Assembly (NCBI RefSeq): GCF_023698535.1
Contig: NZ_JALJCL010000005.1
Span: 62,001 to 126,000, forward strand
Origin: Halorientalis regularis
GTDB lineage: Archaea > Halobacteriota > Halobacteria > Halobacteriales > Haloarculaceae
Reading direction: 5' to 3'
Length of the DNA stretch: 64,000 nt
The notes under the pieces are model-generated. The model was not told where the DNA came from, ran no database searches, and was given only the letters and a program-made list of their open reading frames with translations. Of this stretch, positions 3,352 to 63,513 are shown one piece after another (within the stretch, counting starts at the first letter, position 1; every line of letters starts with the position of its first letter). The translations under genes and the position numbers were made by a program.

Positions 3352-4292
3352 TCAGGCCGTGTCGGTGATCGGGTCGGCGATGACGACGGCTTCACCGTCG
3401 ATGACCTCGTCGCCGTCGGTGTGGACGCTGGTGGTCAGCCGGTAGCGGTCGTTCCCGAGGTCCTCGACGACTTCACACTCGGCGGTGACCTCGCTCCCGA
3501 TGTCGACGGGGCCCAGGAAGGAGGTGTCCTGCGAGAGGTGAACGATGAGGCCGGGCAGGCGGCCAGCGCGGCGCTGACGACGCCGGCAACGAGGGTTCCG
3601 TGGGCGATGGGGTGGCCGAAGCGGGTGCCCTGAGCGTAGTCGGGGTCGAGGTGGAGGCGGTTGGTGTCGCCGCTGGCCTCGGCGAAGGCCGCCACGTCCC
3701 CCTGGGAGAGGGTCTTGGTGAACTTCACCACGTCACCGACCTCGATGCGGTCGTCGTGGGGGCCGAGGCTCTCGAACTCCCACTCGTCGCGCTCGTAGGC
3801 GGTGTCGACGCGGTCGCGGTGGTGGTGGTCGGCCGTCGAGCCACCGCTGGCTTTCGTTCGCCGGCTGAGCTGAGGCAGGTAGTAGGAGATGTCGGTCGTC
3901 GTGACGATGCCAACGAGGTCGCCGTCGCCGGACTGCGTCCGGCTACCAGAGGCGCTTCGCGCCTCGCTGTTGTCGAGGACTGGGAGTTTCTTGATCGTGT
4001 GCTCGCGGAAGCGGTCGACGGCCGTCTCGATGGAGTCGTCGGCGTCGACGGTGACGACCGGACCGGACATGCAGTCGGCGGCGGTCACCGTCCCAGCGTC
4101 GTACCCCTCGGCCACCAGTCCGACCACGTCCAATTCAGTGACGATGCCGACGGGGTCGCCATCCTCGACGACGACCGCCGAGCCGATATCCTTCCCGTGG
4201 AGCAGTTCGGCGACGGCGGCGGCGTCGAGGTCCGGACTGATCGTCTCGACTGTGGGGTTCATTACCTCGCGGATGGTGACGGGGACGAGCAT
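3352..4292 (-). pseudogene. CBS-pair plus MaoC-like hotdog protein, frameshifted near the 3' end
   Basis: Starting at the ATG at 4292, residues 1 to about 140 form two CBS domains (MLVPVTIREVMNPTVETI, later ADCMSGPVVTVD and LVGIVTTTDISYYLPQL). After a histidine-rich linker comes a MaoC-like hotdog domain (IEVGDVVKFTKTLSQGDVAAFAEASGD, then GHPIAHGTLVAGVVSAAL). The frame breaks at about 3559-3570. Adding one G restores GRLPGLIVHLSQDTSFLGP and a good hotdog C-terminus ending at TGA 3352. Without it, translation stops at 3435 after 27 out-of-frame residues. A true mutation, a sequencing error or recoding would all fit. The second CBS domain also holds an in-frame hairpin insertion (see 3928-3965). 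An alternative start is the ATG at 4262. Confidence 0.75.
3928..3965. repeat. two short-loop hairpins inserted in the CBS coding sequence
   Basis: Two adjacent perfect inverted repeats lie inside the CBS-MaoC gene: CCGGAC-TGC-GTCCGG at 3928-3942 and GAGGCGC-TTC-GCGCCTC at 3949-3965. Both have 3-base loops, like the intergenic hairpins elsewhere in this window. They encode the odd stretch SEARSASGSRTQSG between LPVLDN and DGDLVGIV, where CBS domains normally have a direct short turn. The inserted length is about 42 bases, a multiple of three, so the frame survives here. Confidence 0.6.
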
Positions 4293-4388
4293 TCGGTGAC
4301 ACCTCCGGGGCCGGATTCTCTGTGCCTTGGGGTCACCCCACCACCGGTCGGCCTCGCCGCTCAAGTAGCTGGCCCCCACAGGCGACGT

Positions 4389-5354
4389 ATGGACCGTGCC
4401 GTCGTCGCCCTCGTGGTCCTCGTCGCCGCGAGCGGCTGTCTCGGAGTCTCGCCGGACGGCTCGAACGCGCCGGGGACGCCCGCACCACCCGCGGACGCCG
4501 ACCTGGCGAACAGCTACGCGGTGACCGTCACGGCCGTGGTCGACGGCGACACCGTGACGGTCCGCTACCGGAACGGCACGCAAGACACCGTCCGCCTGCT
4601 CGGCGTCGACACGCCCGAGACGGGCGGCGAGAACGACGCCGCCGAGTTCGAGGGCGTCCCCGAGACCGCAGCCGGCCGGGCGTGTCTCGCCGAGGCCGGC
4701 CACGACGCCACCCGCGCGATGACCCAGCGCCTGCTGGGCGAGACCATCACGCTCGGTGTCGACGCCGAGAGCGACCGCCGGGGCTACTACGGCCGCCTGC
4801 TGGGCTATCTCTACCAGGACGGTGAGAACGTCAACTACTGGCTGCTCACCGAGGGCCACGCCCGCGTCTACGACAGCCAGTTCACCGAACGGGAGGCCTT
4901 CGACGCCGCCGAACAGCGAGCGCGTGCCGACGGCACTGGACTCTGGACCTGCGCGACCGAGGACCCGCCGACGGCGACCGGAACGGGCGACGGCACCGTC
5001 GCCGCGGACGGCGGCACGGTCACGGGCGCGCTCGCGATCACCGAGATCCACGCAGACGCCGCCGGCGACGACCGCGAGAACCTGAACGACGAGTACGTGC
5101 GCTTCGAGAACCGCGGCGAGACGGCGCTGGACCTCTCGGGATGGACCGTCGCCGACGCGGCCGACCACCGGTTCCGGTTCCCCGATGGGACGACGCTCGA
5201 CCCCGGCGCACGACTCACGCTCCGGACCGGGAGCGGGACCGACTCGGCGACGACGCTGTACTGGGGTCAGGGGAGTCCGGTCTGGAACAACGGCGGCGAC
5301 ACCGTGACCGTGCGGGCCGCGAACGAGACCGTGATGGCGCGGCAGGCGTACTGA
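4389..5354 (+). CDS. secreted lipoprotein: thermonuclease (SNase) domain plus lamin-tail domain
   Basis: 321 residues. The N-terminus MDRAVVALVVLVAASGC is a signal peptide ending in a lipobox-like ASGC, so the mature protein is probably lipid-anchored outside the cell. Residues about 43-175 are a staphylococcal-nuclease domain: VTVTAVVDGDTVTVRY, RLLGVDTPETGG and YYGRLLGYLYQDGENVN contain the expected catalytic Arg/Glu/Arg region. After an acidic Thr/Gly linker, residues about 205-320 form a lamin-tail domain (ALAITEIHADAAGDD, LDLSGWTVADA, GDTVTVRAANETV). The likely role is degrading extracellular DNA or RNA; the lamin tail probably tethers the enzyme or binds substrate. Confidence 0.88.
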   Translation: MDRAVVALVVLVAASGCLGVSPDGSNAPGTPAPPADADLANSYAVTVTAVVDGDTVTVRYRNGTQDTVRLLGVDTPETGGENDAAEFEGVPETAAGRACLAEAGHDATRAMTQRLLGETITLGVDAESDRRGYYGRLLGYLYQDGENVNYWLLTEGHARVYDSQFTEREAFDAAEQRARADGTGLWTCATEDPPTATGTGDGTVAADGGTVTGALAITEIHADAAGDDRENLNDEYVRFENRGETALDLSGWTVADAADHRFRFPDGTTLDPGARLTLRTGSGTDSATTLYWGQGSPVWNNGGDTVTVRAANETVMARQAY

Positions 5355-5406
5355 GCCGCCACCGACCCGTCCGAGCATCCAAGCCCGTCCAGCCCCGAGT
5401 GGGGGT

Positions 5407-6528
5407 ATGGGCGTGCTCGCCCGCCTGGCACCGCCGCCGAGCCTGGTCGACTGGTCGATCCTCGCGCTGGTCGCGTTCGAGGTCGGGTCGGGACTGGTGA
5501 GTCTCACCGTCGGCCAGCCCTCGGGCGCGTGGCTGTTCACCCTCCACGCGCTGGCTGGCTTCACGCTGGTCGCCCTGCTGGGCTGGAAGTTCCGCCGCGT
5601 CCGTCGCCGCGTCACCGACCGCGATCTGTGGGACGACGGCACTCCGGTCTCGATCCTGCTCGGCACGCTCGCCTTGGCGACTCTCGGGACCGGCATCTAC
5701 TGGGCGCTGTCGGGGCCCGTCCGGATCGCCGGCTGGCCGCTCCTCTTTCTCCACATGGTCCTGGGCACGCTCGTCGTCCCCGTCTTGCTGTGGCACCTGC
5801 GCCACCGGTTCCGGCTCCCCTCGACCGCGGGGATAGATCGACGACGGACGACCCTCCAGTACGGGGCCCTGCTGGGCTTCGGCGCGCTCTCCTGGAAGGC
5901 CCAGCAGGTCGCCGGCGACGCCCTCTCGCTCCCCGGTCGGGACCGCCGGTTCACCGGCTCCAAGGAGGACGGGAGCGACGACGGCAACGCCTTCCCGGTC
6001 ACCAGCTGGGTCGCCGACGACCCCGATCCCATCGACCCCGACGCCTGGACCCTGACCGTCGCCGGCGCGGTCGCGACACCCCTCGAACTCGATTTCGACG
6101 CCCTCCCCCCCGACTCCCGGTCGGCACCGCGCCAACGCGACGGATCGGCCGCTGACACCCCCGTCGGCGCGACCAGCGAGCGGGCCGTCCTGGACTGCAC
6201 CAGCGGCTGGTACTCCGAACACGACTGGGCGGGCGTCCGCGTCGGCGACCTGCTGGATCGAGTGGAGCCGGCCGACGACGCCGCCTGGGTCCGCTTTCGC
6301 TCCGTCACGGGTTACTACTGGAGCCTGCCCATCGAGGAGGCCCAGAACGCGCTGCTGGCGACCCGCGTCGACGGCGACCCGCTCGCGCACGGCCACGGGT
6401 TCCCGCTCCGACTCGTCGCGCCCGGCCGCCGCGGCTTCCAGTGGGTCAAGTGGGTCGAGCGCGTGGAAGTCACCCACCGACAGGATCTGGGTCAGTGGGT
6501 CGCCATCTTCGTCAGCGGGCTAGACTAG
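5407..6528 (+). CDS. membrane-anchored sulfite-oxidase-like molybdopterin protein
   Basis: 373 residues in two parts. Residues 1 to about 135 hold four hydrophobic spans with histidines at 47, 116, 130 and 133, resembling a small cytochrome-b-type heme membrane domain. Residues about 200-373 match the oxidoreductase molybdopterin-binding domain of sulfite oxidase/YedY. Cys264 in AVLDCTSGWYSEHDWAG is the expected molybdenum ligand, followed by GVRVGDLLDRV and a GHGFPLRLVAPGRRGFQWVKWV block. The domain order suggests an enzyme passing electrons between the quinone pool and an external substrate. The substrate cannot be inferred. Its last 9 bases overlap the convergent HAD gene. Confidence 0.85.
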   Translation: MGVLARLAPPPSLVDWSILALVAFEVGSGLVSLTVGQPSGAWLFTLHALAGFTLVALLGWKFRRVRRRVTDRDLWDDGTPVSILLGTLALATLGTGIYWALSGPVRIAGWPLLFLHMVLGTLVVPVLLWHLRHRFRLPSTAGIDRRRTTLQYGALLGFGALSWKAQQVAGDALSLPGRDRRFTGSKEDGSDDGNAFPVTSWVADDPDPIDPDAWTLTVAGAVATPLELDFDALPPDSRSAPRQRDGSAADTPVGATSERAVLDCTSGWYSEHDWAGVRVGDLLDRVEPADDAAWVRFRSVTGYYWSLPIEEAQNALLATRVDGDPLAHGHGFPLRLVAPGRRGFQWVKWVERVEVTHRQDLGQWVAIFVSGLD

Positions 6529-8421: not shown

Positions 8422-8548
8422 CCACCATTTTTGCGTCGGGTGCGCCTGCGGCGCACCACTCCACGAAAAACGTGGGCGAAAAAGACCTCCACGCTCGCTA
8501 CGCTCGCGTGAAGTGAACCGCGGCGCGAAGCGCCGCGGATGCTGGTGC
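8422..8548 (+). repeat. intergenic hairpin element, copy B
   Basis: Order on the plus strand: box I CCACCATTTTT (8422-8432); hairpin GGTGCGCC-TGC-GGCGCACC (8439-8457); box II GAAAAACGTGGGCGAAAAAG (8465-8484); a GCTCGCTACGCTCGC segment; hairpin CCGCGGCGC-GAA-GCGCCGCGG (8518-8538); box III GGATGCTGGTGC (8537-8548). The same boxes in the same order occur at 15754 (no box III), 28604 (minus strand) and 63354 (minus strand). The stems differ between copies while the boxes are kept. Open frames across it are not gene-like. Confidence 0.75.
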
Positions 8549-15753: not shown

Positions 15754-15911
15754 CCACCTTTTTCCGTCGTTCGAGAGAGCGAAGCTCTCTCGTGATCCCG
15801 AAAGAGCGCGAGCGCTCTTTCGGGCGACCTCGGGTGGCGAGCGAGGCTCGCCACCGCTCGGCGCAAAAACGTGGGCGAAAAAGGCCGAGCGCTCGCTCCG
15901 CTCGCGCTCGG
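15754..15911 (+). repeat. intergenic hairpin element, copy A
   Basis: Plus-strand order: box I CCACCTTTTT (15754-15763); hairpin CGAGAGAGC-GAA-GCTCTCTCG (15772-15792); hairpin CCCGAAAGAGCG-CGAG-CGCTCTTTCGGG (15797-15824); hairpin GGTGGCGAGC-GAG-GCTCGCCACC (15833-15855); box II CAAAAACGTGGGCGAAAAAG (15864-15883); hairpin with arms CCGAGCG/CGCTCGG (15885-15911). The end box of the other copies is missing. On the minus strand box II reads as two T5 tracts just after the ZIP gene, so it may also serve as that gene's terminator. Confidence 0.75.
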
Positions 15912-28329: not shown

Positions 28330-28533
28330 TCAGTCGTCGGCGTCGCCGCCGCGGCGCGAGACGACCCACAGGAGGATGAGGATGCCTTCGATACGAGCGG
28401 CGGTGTAGACCCAGGGGCGAAGTTCGACCTCGCTGTCGTCGGTGACGGCGAGATCCATCCAGAAGTCGACGACTTCGCGTGGGGCGAGCAGTTCGGCGAG
28501 ACCCAGCAGGGCCAGCGGGAGTTGGAGTGCCAT
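28330..28533 (-). CDS. small hypothetical membrane protein
   Basis: 67 residues starting MALQLPLALLGLAELLAPREVVDFWMDLAV and ending in a second hydrophobic helix, YTAARIEGILILLWVVSRRGGDADD. There are two predicted membrane segments joined by an acidic loop (TDDSEVELRPW). No named family is recognised. It starts beside hairpin element D and runs toward azlC. The ATG at 28533 is preferred over longer frames, which extend into the hairpins. Confidence 0.6.
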   Translation of the reverse strand: MALQLPLALLGLAELLAPREVVDFWMDLAVTDDSEVELRPWVYTAARIEGILILLWVVSRRGGDADD

Positions 28534-28603: not shown

Positions 28604-28812
28604 GCACCAGCACAGCAACGGAACTCGCGCACTGCGCGAGTTCCGCTTTTTCGCCACCGAAAGACGCGGAGCGTCTTTCGAGTGCTCACGAGAGCGGAGC
28701 TCTCGTGGCATACCGAAAACCTCCGGTTTTCGTGGACACCCGCTCACTCCGTTCGCGGGAACCACGGTTTTGCCGCGGGGGTCGCCACGCGACCCCCGCG
28801 GGAAAAAGGTGG
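28604..28812 (-). repeat. intergenic hairpin element, copy D (central box interrupted)
   Basis: Read on the minus strand: box I CCACCTTTTT (28812-28803); hairpin with 13-base arms and a 3-base loop (28801-28773); left half of box II GCAAAACCGTGG (28773-28762); an insert with hairpins at 28714-28732, 28687-28707 and 28658-28680; right half GGCGAAAAAGC (28655-28645); hairpin with 11-base arms (28644-28620); end box TGCTGGTGC (28612-28604). All five hairpins have perfect arms and 3-base loops. The element fills most of the gap 28534-28855 between divergent genes. Confidence 0.75.
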
Positions 28813-28855: not shown

Positions 28856-29281
28856 ATGGTCGGCGGCTCCGATATGTACCGACAGCAGATCCTCGATCAC
28901 TACAAGAGCCCGCGCAACTACGGGGAGATGGAGGACCCCACGTTCACACACGTCGGCGAGAACCCGATGTGTGGCGACACCATCGAGATGCAGGTACAAC
29001 TCGACGACGACGAAGAGGCGATCGAGTACGTCGCCTTCCAGGGCGACGGCTGTGCGATCTCGCAGGCCTCGGCGTCGATGCTCTCCGAAAAGCTCCAGGG
29101 GATGACGATCGAGGAACTCCAGGAACTGGACCGTGACGACGTGGTCGACATGCTCGGCGTCGACATCTCACCGATGCGGATCAAGTGCGCCGTTCTGGCC
29201 GAGAAGGTCGCGCAGGACGGCGCGGACATCTACTTCGGCGAACTGGACGTGGACAAGACCACGACCGAAGACGACGACTGA
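28856..29281 (+). CDS. sufU: SufU/NifU-like iron-sulfur assembly protein
   Basis: 141 residues, MVGGSDMYRQQILDHYKSPRNYGEMEDPTF.... The three conserved cysteines are in NPMCGDTIEM, GDGCAISQASASML and RIKCAVLAEK, the SufU/IscU pattern. It accepts sulfur from SufS as a zinc- or cluster-binding partner. The start MVGGSDMYRQ resembles the usual haloarchaeal N-terminus. The last 20 codons are repeated downstream as a non-coding copy (29438-29498). Confidence 0.9.
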   Translation: MVGGSDMYRQQILDHYKSPRNYGEMEDPTFTHVGENPMCGDTIEMQVQLDDDEEAIEYVAFQGDGCAISQASASMLSEKLQGMTIEELQELDRDDVVDMLGVDISPMRIKCAVLAEKVAQDGADIYFGELDVDKTTTEDDD

Positions 29282-47560: not shown

Positions 47561-47708
47561 CGAGAGAGCAAAGCTCTCTCGTCATCACCAGAACGCTCCG
47601 CGTTCTGGTTAGCAGCCAGATGCCGACGGCGTCTGGCGACATCACGAAAGGCGCGAAGCGCCTTTCGAACGACGACGCGCCGGCTGCCAGAGGGATCTTC
47701 GATCCCTC
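47561..47708. repeat. array of five short-loop hairpins
   Basis: Five successive inverted repeats with 3-base loops: CGAGAGAGC-AAA-GCTCTCTCG (47561-47581), ACCAGAACGC-TCC-GCGTTCTGGT (47587-47609), GCCAGATGCC-GAC-GGCGTCTGGC (47615-47637, one mismatch), CGAAAGGCGC-GAA-GCGCCTTTCG (47645-47667), GAGGGATC-TTC-GATCCCTC (47690-47708). The first stem is the same as the first stem of element A. Boxes I-III are absent. The array fills the middle of the 388-base gap 47452-47839. Confidence 0.7.
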
Positions 47709-55346: not shown

Positions 55347-55784
55347 TCAGTCCTCGTCGAGTCGGACGGTCATCACGGGAACCGGGGACTTGCGGACGAC
55401 TTTCTCGGCGACGCTCCCGATGAGGTAGTGGTCGATACCGGTGCGGCCGTGGGTACCCATGACGACGAGATCGACGGGAAGATCGTCGATGGCGTCGAGA
55501 ATTGCCGTCTTCGGGACGCCCTCGGCGACGTGGGTCTCGACGGCCACACCGTCCGGGAGCGCGTCGACGGCGGCTGCGACGGCGTCTTCGGCGCGCTCGT
55601 GTTCGGCTTCGTCCCAGACTTTCGAGGAGAGGCCGCTGCTGGGACTCTCGAATCGGTTGCGCGTGTCGGCGACCGAGAGGACGTGGACCGTGGCGTCGAA
55701 TCGTTCGGCGACGGCCGCGGCGTGGTCGGCGGCCGCGGCGAACCCCTCGCTGCCGTCGGTCGGGAGGAGGATGTGCTGGTACAT
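55347..55784 (-). CDS. universal stress protein (UspA family)
   Basis: 145 residues: MYQHILLPTDGSEGFAAAADHAAAVAERFDATVHVLSVAD..., and the ATP-binding loop VVMGTHGRTGIDHYLIGSVAEKVVRKSPVPVMTV. It has the G-2x-G-9x-G[ST] pattern of nucleotide-binding Usp proteins. It lies six bases after the TauE/SafE gene on the same strand, so the two are probably one transcript, as often seen for Usp plus transporter pairs. Its stop is two bases from that of the convergent MOSC gene. Confidence 0.9.
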   Translation of the reverse strand: MYQHILLPTDGSEGFAAAADHAAAVAERFDATVHVLSVADTRNRFESPSSGLSSKVWDEAEHERAEDAVAAAVDALPDGVAVETHVAEGVPKTAILDAIDDLPVDLVVMGTHGRTGIDHYLIGSVAEKVVRKSPVPVMTVRLDED

Positions 55785-63353: not shown

Positions 63354-63513
63354 GCACCAGCATCCGGCGGCCGCAGGCCGCCGGTCACCGTCAGAGCGAC
63401 GCTCTGACGAGCACCCCCTCGTTCCCTGCGGTCACTCGCGAATCCCGTGTTTTTCGCCCACGTTTTTGCGAGGAGGGTGCGCCAGCGGCGCACCCTCCGA
63501 AGTAAAAAGGTGG
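63354..63513 (-). repeat. intergenic hairpin element, copy C
   Basis: Read on the minus strand: box I CCACCTTTTT (63513-63504), hairpin GGAGGGTGCGCC-GCT-GGCGCACCCTCC (63498-63472), box II GCAAAAACGTGGGCGAAAAAC (63469-63449), a spacer, hairpin GTCAGAGCG-T-CGCTCTGAC (63408-63390), hairpin CCGGCGGCC-TGC-GGCCGCCGG (63384-63364), box III GGATGCTGGTGC (63365-63354). It fills the second half of the 301-base gap 63214-63514. The order matches copies B and D. The T5 of box I lies just after the stop of the gene ending at 63515. Confidence 0.75.

Follow-up and report, generated by a model that had tools for sequence, protein, structure and literature searches.

Upstream of a gene in the analyzed window, a stretch of 64,000 nucleotides from the genome of Halorientalis regularis, the two halves of a box that is kept whole elsewhere are separated by an array of hairpins, raising the question of whether these hairpins entered an existing element and constitute a mobile unit. 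At this locus, termed copy D, the box AAAACCGTGG|GCGAAAAAGC is parted on the minus strand by 107 nt (28655-28761), with a one-base ambiguity of the insert boundary at G. The half-boxes are located at 28771-28762 (AAAACCGTGG) and 28655/28654-28646 ((G)GCGAAAAAG). The split had been recognized in a first-pass annotation of the sequence, whose estimate of about 106 inserted bases is corrected here to 107 nt. Read along the minus strand, CCACCTTTTT, a hairpin, CAAAACCGTGG, the insert, GCGAAAAAGC and a second hairpin follow one another. Within the window, the pattern of spaced half-boxes was matched once, compared with no match in 100 shuffled versions, and the arrangement recurs at eight other loci; a chance match of two half-boxes, the objection considered in that annotation, therefore has a negligible probability.

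A long, imperfect stem-loop starts with CCACCTTTTT (28812) and has AAAACCGTGG as its 3' arm. The insert is thus placed at the foot of this left stem-loop, and the central box was no longer regarded as a single unit. The interrupted host element comprises the left stem-loop (CCACC-TTTTT, hairpin and AAAACCGTGG; 28762-28812, minus strand), deduced from sequence, folding and 19 cores in the own genome, the 3' arm of which is the left half of box II. It is followed by the right half of box II, GCGAAAAAG (28646-28654, minus strand), deduced from its sequence and from the spaced pattern in comparison with shuffles, and by a right hairpin CGGAACTCGCGC..GCGCGAGTTCCG (28619-28645, minus strand), which was detected in a hairpin scan and is of a type that recurs in other copies. 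The predicted fold of the 209-nt copy D region is far more stable than that of shuffled sequences, with z values of -10.6 as DNA and -9.4 as RNA. Divergent neighbors of copy D are a sufU/nifU-like scaffold gene (28856-29281, plus strand), which we take to be sufU based on the first-pass annotation and the sequence, and a small ORF of 67 amino acids (28330-28533, minus strand) that adjoins sufU in several congeners, too. The predicted effect of the insert on sufU is probably small, because it lies outside the 44 nt closest to the start codon. Searching the whole window against Rfam at gathering scores revealed a single tRNA and nothing else.

The insert itself (TTCCCG...CGGTG, minus strand) is a cassette of four hairpins. 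Three of them had been described previously and all proved to be perfect, namely H2 (CGAAAACC-GGA-GGTTTTCG, 28714-28732), H3 (CACGAGAGC-TCC-GCTCTCGTG, 28687-28707) and H4 (CGAAAGACGC-TCC-GCGTCTTTCG, 28658-28680), all on the minus strand; the total of three had to be raised by a fourth, imperfect hairpin on the same strand, H1 (CCCGC-GA-AC-GGA-GT-GA-GCGGG, 28739-28759), featuring tandem G.A mismatches. In an alignment of eight cassettes, 94.8% of the cells pair, and 10 of the 34 pairs exhibit a double change. The corresponding covariation score was reached by none of 500 shuffles and by no slid version, the significance deduced from shuffling being overstated because the cassette rows are related. 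The cassette stems are maintained through compensatory change.

Host elements of the same layout (CCACC-T5 / hairpin / A5-CGTGG | GCGAAAAAGC / hairpin) are dispersed. The repeat finder applied to the window returned mainly repeats caused by codon bias, and its pairs I2 and I9 led to the host elements. For the unsplit core CGTGGGCGAAAAA, 19 matches were counted in the own genome, compared with one for the reversed control; three of the 19 lie in the window, where box II is intact in the copies at 8422-8538 and 15754-15910 (both plus strand) and at 63448-63511 (minus strand). The second of these carries two extra hairpins in its left arm (15772-15792 and 15797-15824), which are missing from the sister genome G002 at the same site. 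Moreover, the 19-mer CAAAAACGTGGGCGAAAAA is present in 26 of 58 relatives, and many of the box matches in named genomes belong to Halorientalis. Judging from its dispersal, the host element may itself be mobile.

In order to determine the polarity of the split, four gene-defined sites (sufU, Thi4, IleS and PolD) were compared in eight congeneric genomes, G000 being the own genome. At the sufU site, for which the first-pass annotation had proposed this comparison, G000 is split, G004 possesses an element with the uninterrupted box GAAAAACGTGGGTGAAAAAGG, G007 retains a decayed, unsplit remnant, and no element is present in G001, G002, G003, G005 and G006. The case of all relatives being split was thus not encountered, and the uninterrupted box in G004 indicates insertion. 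At the Thi4 site, only G002 is split, by a cassette of 55 nt; the box is intact in G000, G001 and G007, a near-box CAAAAACTTGGGGAAA is present in G004 and G005, and G003 and G006 lack the element. The IleS site is split only in G000, by a 107-nt form of the cassette, and is intact in G001, G004 and G006, unsplit with a different insert in the left arm in G002, and devoid of the element in G003, G005 and G007. At the PolD site, an element was found in seven of the eight genomes and a faint relic in G007; only G000 carries a two-hairpin insert, CAAAAACGT[CCCCAG...GAACGT]GGGCG, which belongs to another module family than the cassette of copy D. Compared with this site of G000, the box in G004 is intact, the right hairpin is identical and the left arm nearly the same (loop AGG vs. 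CCT). The sufU pair G000/G004 is less clean than those at Thi4 or PolD, because the element arms differ. Furthermore, at site B a cassette resides in the right-hairpin loop of G005, and none is present there in the own genome or G002. As an additional observation, hairpin arms of host elements were swapped wholesale between species, the T-tracts and the box staying in place (D, B and C sites; L032, L211, L213).

Since each site is split in one genome, and the others have an uninterrupted box, show a relic or lack the element, the split box appears to be the derived state, and insertion is the simpler reading of these sequences. An ancestral split form, from which relatives would have lost the cassette precisely, might explain why a cassette of Haloarcula vallismortis sits at the same box base as that of copy D. 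Many precise losses would be needed, however, to arrive at a single split genome per site, that at Thi4 differing from that at sufU, IleS and PolD, and this course of events is considered very improbable. The split and unsplit pairs at sufU, Thi4, IleS, PolD and site B bear out the earlier claim that hairpin blocks insert into existing elements; copy D by itself, which had been taken as direct evidence, does not suffice, since relatives are needed.

Searching with the insert sequence yielded a copy with 95% identity at G000:C12:12398, one with 89% at C33:91353 and additional ones in the genomes G004 and G005. A covariance model built from six copies (R1) uncovered further cassettes, including diverged ones in G001. 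Its top 11 matches resemble real cassettes, and the weaker ones were left out of the counts because they are mostly generic hairpin arrays. In total, 17 copies with common ends, each read in context, were identified in six Halorientalis genomes and Haloarcula vallismortis; since the latter has its cassette at the same base, cassettes in the box span more than one genus. All 17 start with a pyrimidine run followed by CG (TTCCCG, TCTCCG, TTTCCG and similar) and 15 end in CGGTG, the remaining two in CGGTT and CGGCG. Their length ranges from 53 to 158 nt, H2 and H3 being missing from the short forms. In line with the expectation that the insert ends would define the mobile unit, these ends are constant over the 17 copies, and the insert was also found outside the box. 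At the junctions of these copies and in the same-site comparisons, no target duplication is required; a GTG duplication was considered and set aside, as every box copy would need to have lost one G. Likewise, neither inverted terminal repeats (TTCCCG and CGGTG are not complementary) nor a GTAG tag were found at the cassette ends.

Regarding the targets, nine of the 17 cassettes are located at the exact base CGTGG|GCGAAAAA or its variant, six are placed between the host element's right hairpin and AACCG or ACCG, one lies within a right-hairpin loop (L216, at site B of G005), and for one no host element is recognizable (L249). Hence 16 of the 17 are situated in or beside host-element hairpins, and the preferred targets are mostly palindromic elements, in which the left stem-loop is most often entered at its 3' foot. 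One cassette contains a nested two-hairpin module (L254). For the cassette family, insertion, constant ends, target preference, nesting and compensatory change were demonstrated. An objection to transposition is that nine copies share one identical base, which could also be achieved by short-homology gene conversion. The cassette would then have arisen once in box II and moved between host copies by such conversion or by template switching, in agreement with the GTG/GTGG at both of its ends and with the wholesale exchange of arms at orthologous sites. Gene conversion through the half-boxes is possible for the nine box cases and leaves the loop and host-free copies unexplained: cassettes with the same ends reside in a hairpin loop, after the right hairpin and outside any host element, where no half-boxes exist. 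Purely recombinational spread is therefore held to be unlikely.

Based on these results, copy D is probably a dispersed palindromic element interrupted by a non-autonomous mobile cassette of four hairpins that would be mobilized in trans via its hairpins. In single-stranded DNA the palindromes would extrude, and a trans-acting enzyme may use a host hairpin, at its foot or in its loop, as entry point for a hairpin-guided cut-and-join reaction comparable to single-strand transposition of the IS200/IS605 type or to the mover of the Haloquadratum SMR-A repeats. Owing to its target-like terminal GTG and its own palindromic nature, the cassette could admit further modules beside or inside it, so that arrays would grow and nest. 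The suggestion that hairpin units are mobile in their own right is borne out for blocks that contain two to four hairpins joined by fixed linkers, rather than for single hairpins. No mobilizer emerged from a search for Y1 transposases (PF01797), which detected them in seven of the eight genomes and not in the cassette carrier G005, in which past loss is possible. The end hairpins at the Y1 loci are of the CCCAC...GTGGG type, which differs from those of the cassette. The Y1 transposase appears to be an unlikely carrier of the cassette in view of this other end-hairpin type and its absence from G005. A hand-made pattern for one IS605 end in its uninterrupted state had no match in the loci examined. 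Viral contigs matched in two stretches and in one stretch, and no match was obtained among the phages searched, with no sign of viral spread. The plasmids searched contained one partial match (L387), located on pHME132 of Haloferax mediterranei (55605-55653), which matches half of the D cassette at 84% and adjoins the edge of an IS6-family transposase gene.

The usual view of palindromic repeats is that of static terminators or of transposons in decay. In the present comparison of orthologous sites between sister species, blocks of hairpins enter, nest and are exchanged, and their ends can be placed to the base. In the literature, no account of these elements was found, the nearest being that of small mobile repeats (SMR-A; HqIRS42, 43 and 55) in Haloquadratum walsbyi (PMC3119063). 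These are non-coding, comprise about 110 bp, generate no target duplication, have prominent inverted terminal repeats and enter palindromes located close to the ends of PATEs and of IS605 elements, their mobilizer being called enigmatic (PMC3119063). The cassette is likewise non-coding, of similar size (107 nt in D, 53-158 nt over the 17 copies) and free of target duplication, and it targets palindromes of other, presumably mobile, elements; in contrast, no inverted terminal repeats were seen (TTCCCG vs. CACCG), and the cassette consists of several hairpins with fixed linkers. It behaves like SMR-A and is not classed as one, because a search for the defining inverted terminal repeats gave a negative result, the comparison being made by description and not by sequence. 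Palindrome-associated transposable elements (PATEs), which are derived from IS605 (PMC3119063), share with the cassette the absence of inverted terminal repeats and target duplication and the palindromes near the ends, but the cassette shows no similarity to the end hairpins of the Y1 loci of the genus. Bacterial REP, BIME and REPIN sequences resemble it as dispersed extragenic palindromes of 19-27 bp in composite arrays (PMC2817692, PMC3116915, PMC3733652); however, no GTAG/CGTC tag was identified at the cassette ends, several different hairpins occur in fixed order, and no linked RAYT gene is known within the scope of the PF01797 search. Known target sites and cassette ends make the mobilization of small haloarchaeal palindromic repeats, termed enigmatic previously (PMC3119063), directly testable.

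The genomic context of the host elements suggests a possible further role. Among 111 host elements, 30% start at most 10 nt from the end of a same-strand ORF (control 3%), and for 62% an opposite-strand ORF ends no more than 120 nt from the box (control 25%). Because of this clustering and the T-tracts on both strands, the host element fits a putative terminator that acts in both directions between convergent genes; copy D with its divergent neighbors is an exception. The clustering behind stop codons and between the ends of convergent ORFs, together with the compensatory changes in the stems, would also agree with a functional RNA or an enlarged terminator that gained its hairpins by local expansion without any mobility. 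This explanation is hardly tenable, since the cassette, linkers included, recurs at unrelated loci as well as in other genera, and loops flip strand. Flipped loops (TCC/GGA, GAA/TTC, AGG/CCT) were observed between orthologous palindromes at 47561-47708, L205:9545-9668 and L016/L342; the first is a stand-alone hairpin array of cassette-like style (plus strand), the counterpart of which in G004 has its loops flipped. Moreover, G-U pairs in 130 intact left stems are equally distributed over the two strands (56 vs. 56), those of the right hairpins amounting to 116 vs. 79. Loop flipping and the equal G-U counts point to symmetry at the DNA level over a single RNA strand, at least for the left stems. 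Separately, host elements were seen in tandem with duplicated neighboring gene ends (L004-L006, G000:C12:37251-37579; L018-L019; G021:C1:2703835-2705392), with periods of 158 bp and 171 bp and ten copies in G021, and at L010 and L043 a single host element lies between direct copies of 50-80 bp of a gene end.

Hairpins of this style extend beyond the cassette. In 395 kb of the own genome, 48 perfect hairpins with a three-base loop and a stem of at least 8 were counted, and a single first-order random sequence contained 24; the commonest, with either strand counted, are C(GGA)G and C(GAA)G. GNA triloops are known to give unusually stable DNA mini-hairpins. Two-hairpin modules of cassette style were found in host-element left arms (window copy B), alone (window 47561-47708), in box II after ACGT (own-genome PolD site and G004) and near Y1-transposase genes of the IS605 type. 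The stem CGAGAGAGCnnnGCTCTCTCG is present in 76 of 146 genomes of the order, with up to 62 copies per genome and no control match, and is flanked by recurring linkers such as GTGGTT/TCATC and GTCGTT/TGATGA. In a genome from another family (G263), 62 copies of a CGAGAGAGC...GCTCTCTCG module (L359-L373) were observed, often arrayed with AACGAC/GTCGTT outer repeats. Tentatively, and with considerable doubt, an order-wide haloarchaeal system of modular mobile DNA hairpins may be envisaged, characterized by conserved outer stems, fixed linkers, frequent strand-flipping C(GRA)G triloops and defined cassette ends, in which modules would form cassettes, nest, and enter palindrome feet or loops via single-stranded DNA, and even reading frames, the mobilizer being other than the IS200/IS605 Y1 transposase.

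Within the window, a 39-nt two-hairpin module (3927-3965, minus strand) lies in frame in the ORF at 3435-5696 and encodes EARSASGSRTQSGD. In-frame copies occur in proteins that, as recognized from their sequences, are presumably CBS-domain-like (own genome, G002, G004), kinase-like (protein end, G004) and PolX-like (G106), and the peptides encoded in the unrelated proteins of G004 and G106 are almost identical to that of the window. Rickettsia palindromic elements (RPE) are palindromic modules inserted in frame inside unrelated proteins. The module described here (EARSASxSRTxSGD) resembles them in this respect, but the modules of this study lie mainly between genes and nest within other elements.
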